A stretch of DNA of 46,515 nucleotides, taken from the NCBI GenBank assembly GCA_003963405.1, contig RXIY01000037.1, forward strand, positions 1 to 46,515. The letters run 5' to 3'. Positions 3,957 to 38,085 of this stretch are shown one piece after another. The DNA comes from Hyphomicrobiales bacterium. GTDB lineage: Bacteria; Pseudomonadota; Alphaproteobacteria; Rhizobiales; Beijerinckiaceae. A model generated the notes under the pieces. That model saw only the letters and a program-made list of their open reading frames with translations. It was not told the origin of the DNA and made no database searches. How positions within the stretch are numbered: the first letter of the stretch is position 1; the number at the start of each line of letters is the position of its first letter. The position numbers were made by a program, and so were the translations under genes.

Positions 3957-4802
3957 ATGAGCATTGAAGCGATGCTATTGGTAATCACTTTCTGCGTGAT
4001 CATTTTCCCAGTAGCACGCCAACGATACGTCGAGGTTTTGCGGCGCAGAGCGATTTTTGCAATTGAGAAGCAGCGGCATACGCGGGTGATTTCATTGATC
4101 CACCGTGAGGAGTCGATCAATCTTTTCGGAATCCCGGTCGTCAAATTCTTGAACATGAATGATCTCGAAGAGATCATGCGCGGCATTCATTTGACAGACC
4201 CCGAGACGCCCATCGATTTTATACTTCACACGCCAGGCGGACTTTATCTCGCCGCTACCCAGATCGCGCGAGCTTTGAAAGACCACGCTGGAAAAGTGAC
4301 AATTTTCGTGCCCCATTACGCAATGTCCGGAGGAACTCTTATCGCTCTCGCAGCTAACGAAATCATTATGTCCCCCCATGCAGTTCTGGGACCTATCGAC
4401 CCTCAGATCGACGACCTTCCGGCAGCGTCGATCCTCAAGGTGATTCAGCGAAAGCCAATTGCTGAAATTGATGATGACACGATTATACTCGCCGATCTTG
4501 CTGAAAAGGCCATTTCTCAGCTCGGAGATATTGTTGGGGAACTATTAGCCGATAAACTCGACGCGTCAGCGATTGAAATGGTGTCAGAAAGTCTCACGAG
4601 TGGGGCCTGGACACATGACTTTGCGATCACGTATCGGCAGGCAAAAAAGCTTGGTCTGCCGGTGACGACGAACATCCCCAATGAAATTCTCGACCTAATC
4701 GCTCTATATCCTCAACCCATTATTGGAACGCCAAGCGTTGAATATCTTCCGAACACCACTCGGCGAGGGAACGCGGCGAAAACCGATCCATCGCGGAAAT
4801 AA
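3957..4802 (+). CDS. SDH-family Clp-fold serine protease, membrane-anchored
   Basis: The 281-residue product belongs to the SDH/SppA-like serine proteases with a Clp/crotonase fold, predicted to cleave membrane-associated or exported peptides. One N-terminal membrane segment (residues 5-20, AMLLVITFCVIIFPVA) anchors it. The oxyanion-type motif ILHTPGGLYLAA lies at 89-100, and the likely nucleophile is Ser124 in PHYAMSGGTLIALAANEI. These are followed by GPIDPQ, as in the family. The start ATG 3957 is preceded by GAACGGAGA, an acceptable ribosome site. It is a single gene between debris on the left and a convergent CapA gene on the right. The physiological target is unknown. Confidence 0.85.
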   Translation: MSIEAMLLVITFCVIIFPVARQRYVEVLRRRAIFAIEKQRHTRVISLIHREESINLFGIPVVKFLNMNDLEEIMRGIHLTDPETPIDFILHTPGGLYLAATQIARALKDHAGKVTIFVPHYAMSGGTLIALAANEIIMSPHAVLGPIDPQIDDLPAASILKVIQRKPIAEIDDDTIILADLAEKAISQLGDIVGELLADKLDASAIEMVSESLTSGAWTHDFAITYRQAKKLGLPVTTNIPNEILDLIALYPQPIIGTPSVEYLPNTTRRGNAAKTDPSRK

Positions 4803-32962: not shown

Positions 32963-33481
32963 ATGTCGACGGTCACGACCGGCGGGGCGTCACGTCATCA
33001 GAAAAATTCTACGAAATCTCGCCGCGCCAACACATCAACGCCACGGCCCGCCACAAAGCCCGCGACCTCAGCTCTCCCGCGTGGAGACGGCGTAAGATAT
33101 GCCCTCTTCGCCGGAAAGTGCGTCGCAGCCGCGGTGTTCGTGTTCGGCGCCCTGTGCGCCCTCATTTACACGTCGGCGGCCCCTCGCCAGACAAAGCATG
33201 TCGCCAGCGAGAAACAGAAAATCATCGCAAGGCAGAAGACGGCGACAGCGGATAAATCCACCGCGGACGCCAAAGCGGCCCCGGCGAGATTGGTGTCCGC
33301 GCTGGTTTCCAAAATCGATCTGCCAATCAGAGACGCGCCAAGGGGAGAGGCGAAGATCCTTGGCCGAGCTGTCTATGGGTCCCGCGTCGAGGTCCTCGGG
33401 CAAGACGGCAGATGGGCGCAGGTCCGCGCCATCGGGCAAAACGCCGCCGGTTGGGTCGAGAAGGCCGGCCTGAATTTCTAA
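32963..33481 (+). CDS. Membrane-anchored SH3-domain protein
   Basis: The 172-residue product has a basic N-terminal tail (residues 1-45), one membrane segment (about 46-70: YALFAGKCVAAAVFVFGALC), a Lys/Ala-rich linker and a C-terminal bacterial SH3 domain (about 115-172: SKIDLPIRDAPRGEAKILGR, then GSRVEVLGQDGRWAQVRAIG, then AAGWVEKAGLNF). Such proteins often bind peptidoglycan or other proteins on the periplasmic side. ATG 32963 follows AAGGGCGAGGGG, a good ribosome site. It is convergent with repC. Function on the replicon is unknown. Confidence 0.8.
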   Translation: MSTVTTGGASRHQKNSTKSRRANTSTPRPATKPATSALPRGDGVRYALFAGKCVAAAVFVFGALCALIYTSAAPRQTKHVASEKQKIIARQKTATADKSTADAKAAPARLVSALVSKIDLPIRDAPRGEAKILGRAVYGSRVEVLGQDGRWAQVRAIGQNAAGWVEKAGLNF

Positions 33482-33526
33482 AGGCGGGGCGCTCGCAGAA
33501 CCATCCTCTTTCTGCAGCCGTCGCGA

Positions 33527-34870
33527 TCACCCCGCCGCCTTTCGCGCTCTCGCCGACTTGGCGGCCTTGCCCCGCAACAGCGCCATCAACACAGGCCCCA
33601 GGGAAAACTCCCCTGCCCGCGCCTTGGCCGTCAGTGCGCGCAAATAGCCGCCGGCGGATGTGATTTCGTCGCCCCGCTGCAGGATTGCGGCGATAACGAT
33701 CGAGGCGTCATGTTCGCCCATAACCTCAATCGCCTGCGCCCAGGCGTCGGGCGAGACGCCAAGGGCTGAACGAACCGTCGCGGCGGCCGTCGCGAGATCG
33801 CGCCACGACGAAATCTCTCCGCCCCTGGCGTAATCGACGATATCCGGACAGGCTTGCAGCACCATCCCAAGCGGATAGGTTCGGGGGGCTGGTGGTGACC
33901 CGGGATGGATGCGCGTTTCGGTTGCCTGCCGCTCAGGCTCCAATGCTCCTCCCCCATCGGCCGCCGCTTCCTTGCCGATTGGCCCGGACGGTTCGGCCCT
34001 GCCTTCGTGAAGGCTAGGTTCAAGATCAGAAATGTTTGTGGTTTGATTCTGTATGTGGCGCTCAGTCTGAGACTCATTGGCGCTCTTATTTTGGCGTTTA
34101 ACGTGGTTTTCCAGCGCACTATTGATTTCGGCCGCGAGCGCGGCGAGTTCCCCCGCCAAAGCCTCCAAATCGGTCCGCGTCATTTTTCGCGCCTGGCGGC
34201 TGGCAAGCGCCCGATAATCGCTGTGGCGGGTTTCCCAGTCGCCGCGAACGCCCTCTTCCATCCCAGTCTCGATCATTTTGGCGATGTCGCGCCGCGCCAG
34301 AGTAATTTTTTCGCGCAGCAGCGCCATCGCGCGGTTTTCGGCGCGAACCTCTTCGGCGAGATTTTCGATTTCGGTCGCGCGCGCAACGAGCGGTGTTAGG
34401 TCGAAGCCGTAGGCGTCCTCGATGGCGCCCCCCTGCCCTCTCCTGGCGAAGCGTTTGCCGTTGGGTGAGTCCCGGCGGATGATCAGTCCGGCGTCGACCA
34501 GCATGGCAATATGCCGGCGCAACGTGGCTGGGGCCATCCCGTGAGCGCGGATCGACAGTTCCTTATTCGACGGAAAAACGACGATCCCCGGGGCTACTCC
34601 GCTTTCCGAGACCCCCACGCCCTTCTCGGACAGCGTCAGCACCGTCTCCTGATGGAAGCTCAGCAGAGCGTGCAAAACCGATAACGCCCGGTCGGTGACG
34701 CCAAGCGGCGCTTTCGCCTCTGTCAGGGCCCGAAATAGCCGCCATTTGTGGACGACGATTTCCGCCGCGCCGGCGCGGCGCATGAAGTCTTTTGCGGTCG
34801 CCTGGCTCGCCACCATGGCAAGCGTCAGCGACCGCCGCCCGAAGGGCGTCGTTGAGCAATTTTGTTCCAT
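33527..34870 (-). CDS. repC: Plasmid replication initiator RepC
   Basis: RepC is the initiator of repABC replicons and normally acts on an origin inside its own gene. The 447-residue product starts MEQNCSTTPFGRRSLTLAMV and shows the winged-helix region typical of RepC: LGVTDRALSVLHALLSFHQE, ISVFPSNKELSIRAHGMAPA-type text (IVVFPSNKELSIRAHGMAPA), then TLRRHIAMLVDAGLIIRRDS. A C-terminal domain includes YPLGMVLQACPDIVDYARGG. The order repA-repB-repC on the minus strand and the 272-bp repB-repC gap are standard. Translation of RepC should be limited by the antisense RNA described at 34960-35021. No decay is seen, so this replicon is likely functional. Confidence 0.93.
   Translation of the reverse strand: MEQNCSTTPFGRRSLTLAMVASQATAKDFMRRAGAAEIVVHKWRLFRALTEAKAPLGVTDRALSVLHALLSFHQETVLTLSEKGVGVSESGVAPGIVVFPSNKELSIRAHGMAPATLRRHIAMLVDAGLIIRRDSPNGKRFARRGQGGAIEDAYGFDLTPLVARATEIENLAEEVRAENRAMALLREKITLARRDIAKMIETGMEEGVRGDWETRHSDYRALASRQARKMTRTDLEALAGELAALAAEINSALENHVKRQNKSANESQTERHIQNQTTNISDLEPSLHEGRAEPSGPIGKEAAADGGGALEPERQATETRIHPGSPPAPRTYPLGMVLQACPDIVDYARGGEISSWRDLATAAATVRSALGVSPDAWAQAIEVMGEHDASIVIAAILQRGDEITSAGGYLRALTAKARAGEFSLGPVLMALLRGKAAKSARARKAAG
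34020..34110 (-). other. AT-richer stretch within repC, possible replication origin
   Basis: In repABC plasmids the origin lies inside repC, often in an AT-rich part in its second half. Here the segment encoding NHVKRQNKSANESQTERHIQ and its continuation is visibly richer in A and T than the surrounding gene. It is only a candidate; no iterons are seen and the placement rests on family knowledge. Confidence 0.3.
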
Positions 34871-34929
34871 GCCTCTGCCTCTATGGCTTCAGGCAAAGAA
34901 GAACCGCTCGCCGAATCGACGTTCCAACA

Positions 34930-34958
34930 TTGACAAATTTTGTGGAGAGGCTTATTCG
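34930..34958 (+). promoter_or_regulatory. Promoter for the repB-repC antisense RNA
   Basis: A perfect -35 hexamer TTGACA (34930-34935) is followed after 17 bases by TATTCG (34953-34958) as a weak -10 element. It points on the plus strand, opposite to the rep genes, exactly where antisense RNA promoters lie in repABC plasmids. Confidence 0.55.
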
Positions 34959-34959
34959 T

Positions 34960-35021
34960 ATCTTCGCCAAAAGAACACGAAGGCTCTCGAGTTGGTTCGC
35001 CGCTTGGGGGCCTTTCTTTTT
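34960..35021 (+). ncRNA. Predicted counter-transcribed RNA (incA-type) between repB and repC
   Basis: The repB-repC gap of repABC plasmids encodes a small antisense RNA that limits RepC synthesis and causes incompatibility. Here a promoter-like pair (34930-34958) reads into a short segment ending in a terminator hairpin (34982-35021), which predicts an RNA of about 55 to 60 nt. Position, strand and length all fit the family. The start site is an estimate, and expression is not shown by sequence. Confidence 0.65.
34982..35021 (+). terminator. Rho-independent terminator of the antisense RNA
   Basis: GGCTCTCGAG (34982-34991) pairs over ten positions with CTTGGGGGCC (35003-35012), counting G-T wobbles, around an 11-base loop. 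TTTCTTTTT follows at 35013-35021. The plus-strand orientation suits the antisense RNA rather than the rep mRNA. Confidence 0.7.
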
Positions 35022-35102
35022 GCCGTGAGTTCCGTCCTCTATTTTCATTGTTCGGGCGATTGCCGTTTCTGATCAGCGGAAGCGCCGATCGTGAACGATG
35101 AA

Positions 35103-35128
35103 GAATCCTTGGCATCTGCCAAGGATTC
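35103..35128. repeat. 26-bp palindrome, copy 1, just downstream of repB
   Basis: Arms GAATCCTTGGCA and TGCCAAGGATTC are perfect reverse complements around a 2-base centre (TC). Copy 1 lies 15 bp after the repB stop, within the repB-repC gap. An identical-armed copy is at 35381-35406. The position and symmetry fit centromere-like (parS) sites bound by RepB, although the sequence is not the GTT(N4)GC-type consensus I recall for other repABC plasmids. Confidence 0.8.
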
Positions 35129-35142
35129 ATCTCGCCATCAAA

Positions 35143-36171
35143 TTACTCTTCACGCTCACTCGCAAAAAACTTGCTCATCAACGAAGGAAGTTCTGCACTT
35201 AGAAAAGTGGCGAACGCCTCCGAACGTGACTTTTCGATCGTCAGCCTTATTTCCGACGCCGAAAACGTGGCCCGGCCGACGACTTTCCCTGCAGGAGACG
35301 AAAGGTCGAGGCCCCTGCGCGGGCTCTCAGTCCGCTTTTTCACGGACTCCAGAGCGGCGCGGAAACGATCGTCGGACACAGAATCCTTGGCAGATGCCAA
35401 GGATTCTTTCAGGCGATCCAACGCGGTCGGGTCAGCGTTGACAGCGTTTCCAAGCGCCACCCAACGAGGTCGGCCGGCCTTTGGCGCTCGGCCAATCGCT
35501 AGAATTGTTTCCACGGAAAGGGCCCGGCAAACTGCACGGAATCGGGCTAACTCAGGATCGTCGATCGCGAGGGCAGAGCGGATGTCTCGTGCCTTTATCC
35601 CCGCTTCATCCATGCGCCATGCGAAGAGAGCCTTTTCAATCCAACTAAGGTCCTGACGCGCAGAATTCTCGATTCCTTGCGCGATGACCAGTTCCCGGTC
35701 ATTAAGGCTGGCGATCACCGCCTTGACGGTTATTCCAAGTTCCTTGGCTGCCCGCCAACGTCGATGGCCGTAAACCACTTGATACCGGTCAATGGCGACA
35801 GGATGCGGCCGCACTCCGATCGGAACCTTCTGTCCTTCGTCGGAGATAAGCTTTTTGAACTCCTCAAAATCGTGATTATCATCTTCCGGCAGACGATCGG
35901 GGTAGGGCGAAGGATCGACCAACGAAGGGTCGAGTTCTCGTATGCCGCCAGCCTCGAGTTGGGCCCGAAGCCTGTCCCGCTCCTCCCGGATATCAGTCAA
36001 AGTGCGCTGAGTGGCACCGATCACGCCTGCGCCGACACGCGAAACAGGTTGTGGTGTTTGTCCGAGCCGGGGTGAACCAGAGTTAGTTTCGTCATCTGGC
36101 TGTTCGGTCAGTCCCGCGGAGAGAGCGCTGAAATTCGAGATAATAGACTTTCTAGGAGAGTGTTTGCTCAT
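35143..36171 (-). CDS. repB: Plasmid partition protein RepB (ParB family)
   Basis: RepB binds centromere sites and works with RepA to segregate the replicon. The 342-residue product has the ParB nuclease-like N-terminal boxes (IGVRPHPVAIDRYQVVYGHR, then RWRAAKELGI; ENSARQDLSWIEKALFAWRM) and a central helix-turn-helix area (GIKARDIRSALAIDDPELAR). The C-terminal RepB region follows. ATG 36171 overlaps the repA stop by 4 bp (ATGA). A perfect 26-bp palindrome is embedded in the coding sequence at 35381-35406, where it encodes ESLASAKDS. The family and operon place are secure. Confidence 0.93.
   Translation of the reverse strand: MSKHSPRKSIISNFSALSAGLTEQPDDETNSGSPRLGQTPQPVSRVGAGVIGATQRTLTDIREERDRLRAQLEAGGIRELDPSLVDPSPYPDRLPEDDNHDFEEFKKLISDEGQKVPIGVRPHPVAIDRYQVVYGHRRWRAAKELGITVKAVIASLNDRELVIAQGIENSARQDLSWIEKALFAWRMDEAGIKARDIRSALAIDDPELARFRAVCRALSVETILAIGRAPKAGRPRWVALGNAVNADPTALDRLKESLASAKDSVSDDRFRAALESVKKRTESPRRGLDLSSPAGKVVGRATFSASEIRLTIEKSRSEAFATFLSAELPSLMSKFFASEREE
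35381..35406. repeat. 26-bp palindrome, copy 2, inside repB
   Basis: The same 12-bp arms as copy 1 (GAATCCTTGGCA / TGCCAAGGATTC) surround a different 2-base centre (GA). The copy lies in the repB coding region, where it encodes ESLASAKDS. It is centred 278 bp from copy 1. Conservation of a perfect palindrome inside a gene suggests selection for protein binding. Confidence 0.8.
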
Positions 36172-37379
36172 TGCCGCCCCCAGCTCTCGGCGATCAGAGC
36201 CCGGATACTATCGTTGACAGCATCCATGGACTCTCGCGCCCGGAGAAACGTGTCGCGCCCAATTTCACCGGACTCCAGTTCATAAAGGCTACGTTTTGCA
36301 AGGCCGGCTGCCTCAATGGCGGTGCTCTCTATCGCCGTCGGCATCAATACTTCATCCGCGAAGAGCAGTCGCAACATCGACACTATTTGCGCTTGAGGCT
36401 GATCATTTGGGTCATGTCGCGTGATGAGATAACGGAAAAAGTCCTGATTCAGAGTTGCCCCTGCCTCCTTAATGACTCCAATCAAGTCACTCATCATCAA
36501 TAGGAACTGGCTCATGGAGGCGACGTCGAGCATAGCGGGGTGGACCGTGACCACTAGTCCCGTTGCCGCGTAAATCGCGCCCAGGGTCAAGAATCCCAAT
36601 GACGGCGGGGTATCCAAGATAACTACGTCATAATCGACGTCTGCTTCAGCAATTGCCAGCCGAAGGCGCTCGAAGAACAACCCTCCAGAAGAACTGCGCT
36701 GCGCCAAAATACGCGGAATCTCGTGTTCGTATTCCATAACCTCAATATTTCCCGGAATAAGATCCACCCCCGTGAAATAGGTCTTCCGAATGATATCCCG
36801 GATCGGGCGCCGAAGGTCATCATGGCGTAACGCGGCATAGATCGTCTCGTTGTCGCCGACATCCATTTCAGGCTGGGCACCAAACATCGCAGATAATGAC
36901 GCCTGTGGGTCGAGATCGATTGCTAAAACACGATAGCCGTGGAGACCAAGATAATGAGCCAAGTGCAGACTTGTGGTCGTCTTGGCGCTTCCACCCTTGA
37001 AATTCGCGATGGCCAAGACCTGAAGATGTTCGCCCGGACGTCGACGCGGCAGAAACCGCAACGCCTCCAATGGCTTCTGTTCGGCAAAGAGGCGACGTAG
37101 CTCATTTATTTGCGTGAGCGTGTAAGCCCTATGATTATTCTCGAGACGAGCCGGTATTGGCCCTTTGCCTTCAATTGACATTGTCTTCAGTGTGGAAGCG
37201 GGAATTGATGTGAGCTTCGACACCTCGTTGGTCATAAAGTTGCGGAGGCTTTTTTCGGCATGCGGGGGGTACATTCTCTGCCGTAGAGCCTGCATTTGGT
37301 TAGAGAGCACGCCGGCGTGGCGGACAATCCTCTCCGCAGGATCTTCCCGTGCTGCAAGACGTCTCGCGACTTCAACCAT
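36168..37379 (-). CDS. repA: Plasmid partition ATPase RepA (ParA family)
   Basis: RepA is the Walker-type ATPase of the repABC partition system and also represses its own operon. The 403-residue product has an N-terminal helix-turn-helix region (RNFMTNEVSKLTSIPASTLK), a deviant Walker A motif at 128-134 (IANFKGGSAKTTTSLHLAHY), and RVLAIDLDPQASLSAMFG. Later come VDYDVVILDTPPSLGFLTLG and VTVHPAMLDVASMSQFL. Length and order are normal. ATG 37379 lies 18 bp after a strong hairpin (37398-37437) in the leader. Its end overlaps repB by 4 bp. Confidence 0.94.
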   Translation of the reverse strand: MVEVARRLAAREDPAERIVRHAGVLSNQMQALRQRMYPPHAEKSLRNFMTNEVSKLTSIPASTLKTMSIEGKGPIPARLENNHRAYTLTQINELRRLFAEQKPLEALRFLPRRRPGEHLQVLAIANFKGGSAKTTTSLHLAHYLGLHGYRVLAIDLDPQASLSAMFGAQPEMDVGDNETIYAALRHDDLRRPIRDIIRKTYFTGVDLIPGNIEVMEYEHEIPRILAQRSSSGGLFFERLRLAIAEADVDYDVVILDTPPSLGFLTLGAIYAATGLVVTVHPAMLDVASMSQFLLMMSDLIGVIKEAGATLNQDFFRYLITRHDPNDQPQAQIVSMLRLLFADEVLMPTAIESTAIEAAGLAKRSLYELESGEIGRDTFLRARESMDAVNDSIRALIAESWGRQ

Positions 37380-37397
37380 CGTCGTTCCCGGCCCTAA

Positions 37398-37437
37398 CTG
37401 ACGGGTGGAAGGCGCTTTGACGCCCTCCGCCCGTCAG
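37398..37437 (-). promoter_or_regulatory. Strong hairpin in the repA leader
   Basis: CTGACGGGTGGAAGGCG (37398-37414) and CGCCCTCCGCCCGTCAG (37421-37437) match as inverted repeats at 15 of 17 positions, the other two being wobble pairs on the minus-strand RNA, with a 6-base loop. It ends 18 bp before the repA start codon. It could be a RepA operator or an mRNA structure that limits repA translation. Confidence 0.6.
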
Positions 37438-37658
37438 GGAATAGGCCACGATTCTCTCTGTAGGTCCAGCGATATTGGGTTAACAAGATATTAACGCCAC
37501 CCCGCCGAGATTAAGGCTCAGCTGGCTGCGGGTTTTTGTCTCGGCGGCTTGGGAGATATGACAGAAAGCAGCAACTCGGGGAAATACTGGGTTAGGAAGG
37601 CAACTGGTTGCGCAATGAACCTCAATTTCATCGCCAACCGGACGTGCAGAAATCTGAT

Positions 37659-37934
37659 TCAGTGCACCCATGCCTTGAGGACTTCCGCACCGGCTTCGGC
37701 CCATTGCTTGTAGGTGCCCCAGGCACCCGACATGTAGCCGCAAGCATCGGCGGCGGCCCAGAGGGTCAGGATGTTGACGCCGCGATAGCGGCTCTTCGAG
37801 GCGATATTGACGGGACGCATGATGTTGCCGGCCGAGCGGTGCCAGGGCAGGCGGAATTCGCCTGCGCCGGACTCGATTGCGGCAATGATTTGATTGGTTA
37901 TGTGCTGGTGAATGTAGAAGCGTTGCTCTTTCAT
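37659..37934 (-). pseudogene. N-terminal fragment of an ArdC-like antirestriction protein
   Basis: The 91-residue frame has the N-terminal domain of the ArdC/DUF1738 family: MKEQRFYIHQHITNQIIAAI, LPWHRSAGNIMRPVNIASKS, RYRGVNILTLWAAADACGYM, then GTYKQWAEAGAEV. There it diverges from the family (LKAWVH, stop) where RKGEK is expected. The C-terminal zinc-peptidase-like domain is missing here; a related copy of that part lies at 38589-39258. ATG 37934 is clear. ArdC binds single-stranded DNA and shields entering plasmids from restriction; this stump probably cannot, though a truncated DNA-binding domain could still bind. Confidence 0.75.
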
Positions 37935-37936
37935 AA

Positions 37937-37970
37937 CGGTTCCCCCTTGATTGGCGAGCCGCGGGAACCG
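37937..37970. promoter_or_regulatory. Inverted repeat just upstream of the ArdC N-terminal fragment
   Basis: CGGTTCCC (37937-37944) and GGGAACCG (37963-37970) are perfect reverse complements with 18 bases between. It begins 3 bp from the ArdC fragment's start codon, so it may be an operator for that gene. Confidence 0.4.
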
Positions 37971-38085
37971 AGGAATAAAGGCAGCGGAGACATTCCGGCT
38001 AGTCAGCTGGCCGCCGACGCGGTGCGAGAGCGAAGAAGGTGTTACGCCTGGCAGGTGCGCTCTGATTAAGAGATAGAGCCGGCGG

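Follow-up and report, generated by a model that had tools for sequence, protein, structure and literature searches.

Two identical-arm palindromes bracketing the 3' end of repB: candidate parS sites of a repABC plasmid in a Hyphomicrobiales bacterium

The repABC locus and its two palindromes

The 46,515-nucleotide stretch analysed here, referred to below as the window, is contig RXIY01000037.1 (C71 in our numbering of the host assembly, GCA_003963405.1) of a Hyphomicrobiales bacterium of the Beijerinckiaceae. It contains a repABC replicon, with repA, repB and repC in that order on the minus strand, and two palindromes at the 3' end of repB that very probably are the centromere-like (parS) sites of the plasmid. 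The repA gene (36168-37379) encodes a ParA-type partition ATPase (TIGR03453, 580.7 bits), repB (35143-36171) a ParB-type centromere-binding protein of 342 residues (TIGR03454, 290.7 bits for a cut-off of 201.5; PF07506 and PF02195), and repC (33527-34870) the replication initiator (NF040974, 495 bits). RepB has the ParB N-terminal domain and a helix-turn-helix DNA-binding domain. In its predicted structure (11 sequences; mean predicted local distance difference test score, pLDDT, 69.3) the helix-turn-helix lies at residues 194-201 and 205-217; the best structural matches are ParB, Noc and KorB, and SopB-DNA for the DNA-binding part. The closest named relative of RepB, 98.2% identical, is encoded by the Methylocystis iwaonis plasmid pSS37A-Re-3, and on this ground we take the host to be a Methylocystis.

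The first palindrome, candidate parS site 1 (35103-35128, assigned to neither strand), is the perfect 26-mer GAATCCTTGGCATCTGCCAAGGATTC. It begins 14 bp past the repB stop, in the unstranded repB-repC intergenic region (34871-35142), the usual location of an antisense counter-transcribed RNA (ctRNA). The second, candidate parS site 2 (35380-35407, likewise without strand), is internal to repB: its core 26-mer GAATCCTTGGCAGATGCCAAGGATTC occupies 35381-35406, and symmetry reaches 1 bp further on each side, making a 28-bp palindrome over repB codons about 255-264, which encode ESLASAKDS. The preliminary description of this DNA had given the sequences and coordinates of both 26-mers exactly, had correctly placed one just past repB and the other within it, and had contrasted their centres (TC and GA). 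This contrast is a strand artefact: the 26-mers are reverse complements, that is, one sequence in inverted orientation, so the two centres are one centre seen from two strands.

No other perfect palindrome in the window has arms of 10 nucleotides or more around a centre of 4 or fewer, and a search of the host assembly (4.64 Mb, 122 contigs) allowing up to 3 mismatches found no third copy of the 26-mer, which bears out the earlier remark that the window holds no other. Chance had also been called implausible, and 60 first-order Markov simulations of the window agree, giving a mean of 0.033 palindromes with arms of at least 12 per window (maximum 1).

Each 26-mer has GANTC at both ends (GAATC and GATTC), the recognition sequence of the CcrM methylase (PMC9040568). 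We gave no weight to a link with CcrM: the window has 127 GANTC sequences (one per 366 bp), and the outer bases most often seen in the relatives' sites, AAACC, do not form it.

The same two positions in related plasmids

To place the pair among its relatives, 12 RepB loci of named genomes, 16 named-plasmid stretches and loci from further genomes were scanned. The core set comprises 32 loci, the window included, whose RepB is at least 48% identical to that of the window; at each locus the site is the best scorer, within 40 bp for the in-gene and 50 bp for the downstream site. The enrichment near related repB genes by which the preliminary description would have its proposal judged is present. 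An in-gene palindrome (at least 7 of 8 pairs) occurs in 26 of the 32 loci (8/8 in 22), one past repB in 30 (8/8 in 24), and both together in 25. Control stretches of repB genes reached 8/8 pairs in 0 of 365 cases and 7/8 in 13. In the 25 two-site loci the in-gene centre precedes the repB stop by 248-263 bp, in a single codon phase, and the downstream centre follows it by 9-29 bp; most sites of the window's RepB group flank the 3' end of repB. Both equivalent places are occupied in Xanthobacter, Ancylobacter, Mesorhizobium, Bradyrhizobium, Nitrobacter, Pelagibacterium, Devosia, Hoeflea, Aminobacter and Rhizobium. Within one plasmid the two sites agree in their inner 6-bp arm in 25 of 25 cases; across plasmids, sites do so in 296 of 600 comparisons.

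These paired sites also bear on an alternative, that a mobile or repetitive palindromic (REP-like) element was inserted twice, or that the match is fortuitous. Two identical copies are what such an element would leave; however, the assembly has no other copy, other genera have palindromes at the equivalent positions, where a change of arm at one site is matched at the other, and the simulations make a chance match very unlikely. We rejected both forms of this explanation, to which we assign a negligible probability.

The internal site is under constraint as DNA. Among 17 RepBs at least 55% identical, codons encoding the same residue agree best over nine alignment columns counted from residue 256 (identity 0.926, the highest of 343 such stretches; mean 0.466). 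The DNA here thus shows conservation over and above that of the protein; the synonymous positions are frozen. Since site 2 is internal to repB, the same nucleotides encode the candidate reader protein and form its putative binding site. In the predicted structure the residues concerned lie behind the helix-turn-helix, where helix 250-260 ends and passes into a loop. Residues 259 and 261 are Ser and Asp in all 16 rows (loci of the comparison) with the arm CTTGTCA, and Ala and Ala in all 4 rows with the window's arm, CTTGGCA. Arm identity within pairs, frozen synonymous codons and these Ser/Ala and Asp/Ala exchanges are what a parS bound by RepB would predict.

Conservation of the arms as such also argues against RNA hairpins, whether as a terminator or as a folded element of the repB-repC leader or ctRNA. 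RNA transcribed from a perfect inverted repeat can fold, and site 1 falls within the region where ctRNAs of repABC plasmids are encoded (PMC9040568). The second copy, however, sits inside repB, neither copy is followed by a T run, the sole terminator-like site called in 34750-35500 is away from both (35319-35335), and what plasmids and arm classes preserve is the sequence of the arms as well as their pairing. An Rfam scan of 33000-38000 at E up to 1 returned a single match and did not locate the ctRNA: BSnc120 (Brucella sRNA 120), full-length, at 35072-35145 and so overlapping site 1, is weak (E 0.06; 23.4 bits, far below the gathering score of 114) and probably due to chance. Neither the Rfam scan nor the terminator calls support the hairpin explanation, which we hold to be very improbable.

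Comparison with known parS sites

The published repABC parS consensus is GTTNNCNGCNGNNAAC (Cevallos et al., quoted in PMC9040568). Like it, the window's sites contain a 16-bp palindrome located at repABC, and the TTNNC and GNNAA cores agree. The preliminary description saw no match to the repABC parS consensus; this holds for 3 of the 10 specified bases, while the other 7 match by hand count. The parS sites of pAMI4 were shown to bind RepB and to confer incompatibility and partition (PMC9040568), and CCTGTCAGCTGACAGG of Sinorhizobium meliloti pSmeLPU88b works as parS in an incompatibility test despite its divergence (PMC10194956); as the latter matches only 6 of the 10 specified bases (hand count), a full match does not define membership. 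We located CCTGTCAGCTGACAGG in the pSmeLPU88b record (locus L095), about 94 bp after repC; the RepB of this locus is 51% identical to that of the window. The repB-repC DNA of pSmeLPU88b is 90% identical to that of locus L079, placed by the tree with the related RepBs. The window and pSmeLPU88b sites share the register CNTGNCA-NN-TGNCANG and differ in location and arm, the former being at repB with arm CTTGGCA, the latter past repC with arm CCTGTCA.

Positions like those of the window are also on record, in a study of Rhizobium leguminosarum: a parS inside repB of pRleTA1b, and one just past repB of pRleTA1c that needs DNA 19-49 bp downstream, the two parS of each cassette exerting incompatibility (PMC4492784). 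The comparison concerns general position, and the pairing differs, as each of these sites is partnered there with one upstream of repA, whereas the window combines an internal and a downstream site. In Rhodobacteraceae, the RepABC palindromes TTAACAG/CTGTTAA and TTCACAG/CTGTGAA of compatible groups differ by one mirrored base (PMC5613091), which is paralleled by the T/G difference between CTTGTCA and CTTGGCA; those palindromes, unlike the window's, are of 14 nt and typically form two adjacent copies downstream of repC. Among the matches listed in the surveyed literature, the strings CTTGTCAGCTGACAAG and CTTGGCAGCTGCCAAG were not found, the window's own 16-mer not being a query string; the string CCTTGGCA is present in a repABC paper (PMC3123555).

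Several observations weigh against identifying the pair as parS. The outer pair of the window's 16-mer is C-G where the consensus has G-C, and one central base also differs. The in-gene site was not found in 6 of the 32 loci (L075, L076, L077, L079, L080 and L083), nor the downstream site in 2 (L073 and L076). Perfect parS-like palindromes lie downstream of repC in L079, L080 and L095, which implies that sites can differ in position within the wider group. Finally, sites were picked by best score and several rows are near copies, so that the counts are not numbers of independent events. Two of these loci, L079 and L080, lack the in-gene site yet retain a palindrome just past repB (7 and 8 of 8 pairs), and the sites in L079, L080 and L095 appear to have moved about within the RepB group.

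A further possibility is that the palindromes serve as operators only, through which RepB or RepA would repress repC or the ctRNA, the true centromere lying elsewhere on the plasmid. The contig may be only part of the plasmid, the closest relative being 83 kb. Against this, the search of the assembly at up to 3 mismatches leaves the pair as the sole candidate sites of that sequence in the assembled DNA, and regulation and centromere function can coexist. We consider an operator-only role unlikely.

On balance, the pair very probably represents the parS sites of this repABC plasmid, a reading built on where the sites lie, on their pairing and on the constraint seen at the DNA level among related plasmids. 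The preliminary description's candidate centromere sites are thus strongly supported as centromere-like, whereas its word 'new' was an overstatement, since position and core follow known repABC parS (PMC9040568, PMC10194956, PMC4492784): the pair is a variant of the known kind and no new kind. Less ordinary are the recurrence of a pair around the repB 3' end, the dual coding of one member in repB, and the rarer CTTGGCA arm. By analogy with known repABC and ParB systems, a RepB dimer would bind the arms CTTGGCA/TGCCAAG via its helix-turn-helix, be loaded at the two sites on either side of the repB 3' end, and spread or clamp on adjacent DNA; the RepA ATPase would then move the RepB-bound DNA, so that plasmid copies separate. 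The same two sites would be expected to confer incompatibility, and may tune transcription of repC or of the ctRNA.

Arm classes and RepB lineage

CTTGTCA is the arm of most of the 32 rows. The window's arm, CTTGGCA, recurs in the M. iwaonis plasmid (L065), in Aminobacter plasmid pSR5 (L074) and in one other genome of the order (G118, locus L048). Four Rhizobium loci have CCTGTCA, and five loci (L075, L077, L079, L080 and L083) have an inner arm of CTGACA type past repB; the in-gene site of Xanthobacter dioxanivorans, GAAACCTTGTCAGCTGACAAGGTTTC, shows two mirrored changes from the window's arms. The T/G difference between the two main classes is itself mirrored across both arms and both sites. 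Mapping of five arm labels (one of them 'other') on the RepB tree requires 5 changes, for a mean of 14.3 after shuffling; parS-like sites thus co-occur and co-vary with the cognate RepB lineage. The CTTGGCA rows are accounted for by one change on the unrooted tree (95/90). As drawn with outgroups they form a basal grade, partly with long branches, which leaves the direction of the T/G change open.

Residues 170, 180 and 211 of RepB differ between the 4 CTTGGCA and the 16 CTTGTCA rows, a difference that follows the tree (for residues 170 and 180, L073 was left out of the comparison). Residue 211 falls in the second predicted helix of the helix-turn-helix; all 4 CTTGGCA rows have F here, 15 of the 16 CTTGTCA rows L, and all 8 CCTG rows M. 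As the sole specificity residue it was rejected: L066 has M with CTTGTCA, L073 has F with an imperfect site of GTCA type, and the pattern tracks the tree, so we keep it as a lead only.

CTTGGCA may plausibly be a specificity group of its own, as the preliminary description had suggested. A fuller proposal is that it constitutes a separate centromere specificity group in a RepB subfamily whose parS pair brackets the repB 3' end, and that the switch between CTTGTCA and CTTGGCA alters RepB residues 259 and 261 together, accompanied by the differences in the DNA-binding region (170, 180 and 211), DNA and protein specificity moving in step. We offer this proposal tentatively, its chances being slightly less than even.

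Across the order, the loose pattern CCTTGNCANNTGNCAAGG matched 12 of 397 genomes, and a backward control pattern 2. The match adjoins a RepB relative in 3 of the 12 (G000, G118 and G384); in the fetched stretches of the other 9 no RepB relative was found, which, with the control matches, means that the loose pattern alone is not diagnostic. Of 39 genomes of the genus, 2 contain CTTGGCANNTGCCAAG, at two places in each. It was not found in G433, a genome of the same species as the host, which is what an accessory plasmid would lead one to expect.

Other repABC loci of the host

The host genome encodes eight RepBs above the TIGR03454 cut-off. The seven other repABC loci (L058-L064) were compared over stretches of 4 to 8.5 kb, and six of them have 16-mers of the published kind, with arms GTTAGCC, GTTGGCC, GTTGCCA, GTTGGGA, GTTCTCA and GTTTGCC; on the seventh, the 4-kb contig C75, no parS-like 16-mer was found. 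The comparable plasmids of this host thus share no arms, as compatibility predicts. In L064 (contig C117), whose RepB is 33% identical to the window's, a parS-like site, GTTTGCCGCGGCAAAC, lies in the 3' part of repB, its 16-mer centred at 4292, 245 bp before the stop; a second parS-like site lies about 1.35 kb upstream of the repB start.

Two further features of these loci are recorded here. The near-palindrome GCTCGCCACCATGGCAAGC lies at 34805-34823 of the window, in the 5' part of repC; the form GCTCGCCATGGTGGCGAGC (operon direction) is found 252-294 bp past repB in L024, L025, L042, L061 and L063, and a variant in L039. Near the repABC operon of M. iwaonis pSS37A-Re-3 (L065:1128-2942) are genes annotated as a cyclic oligonucleotide-based antiphage signalling system (CBASS) oligonucleotide cyclase and an S-4TM family putative pore-forming effector, which likely belong to anti-phage defence.

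Implications

For plasmids of methanotrophs (Methylocystis), the pair provides a defined candidate centromere and incompatibility determinant. Within a single host, the repABC loci with differing arms form a natural set in which parS compatibility could be addressed. More broadly, the natural series of arms CTTGTCA, CTTGGCA, CCTGTCA and CCTGACA, each with matching RepBs, would give a handle on how a ParB-type protein shifts its specificity when one of its sites is dual-coded in repB.
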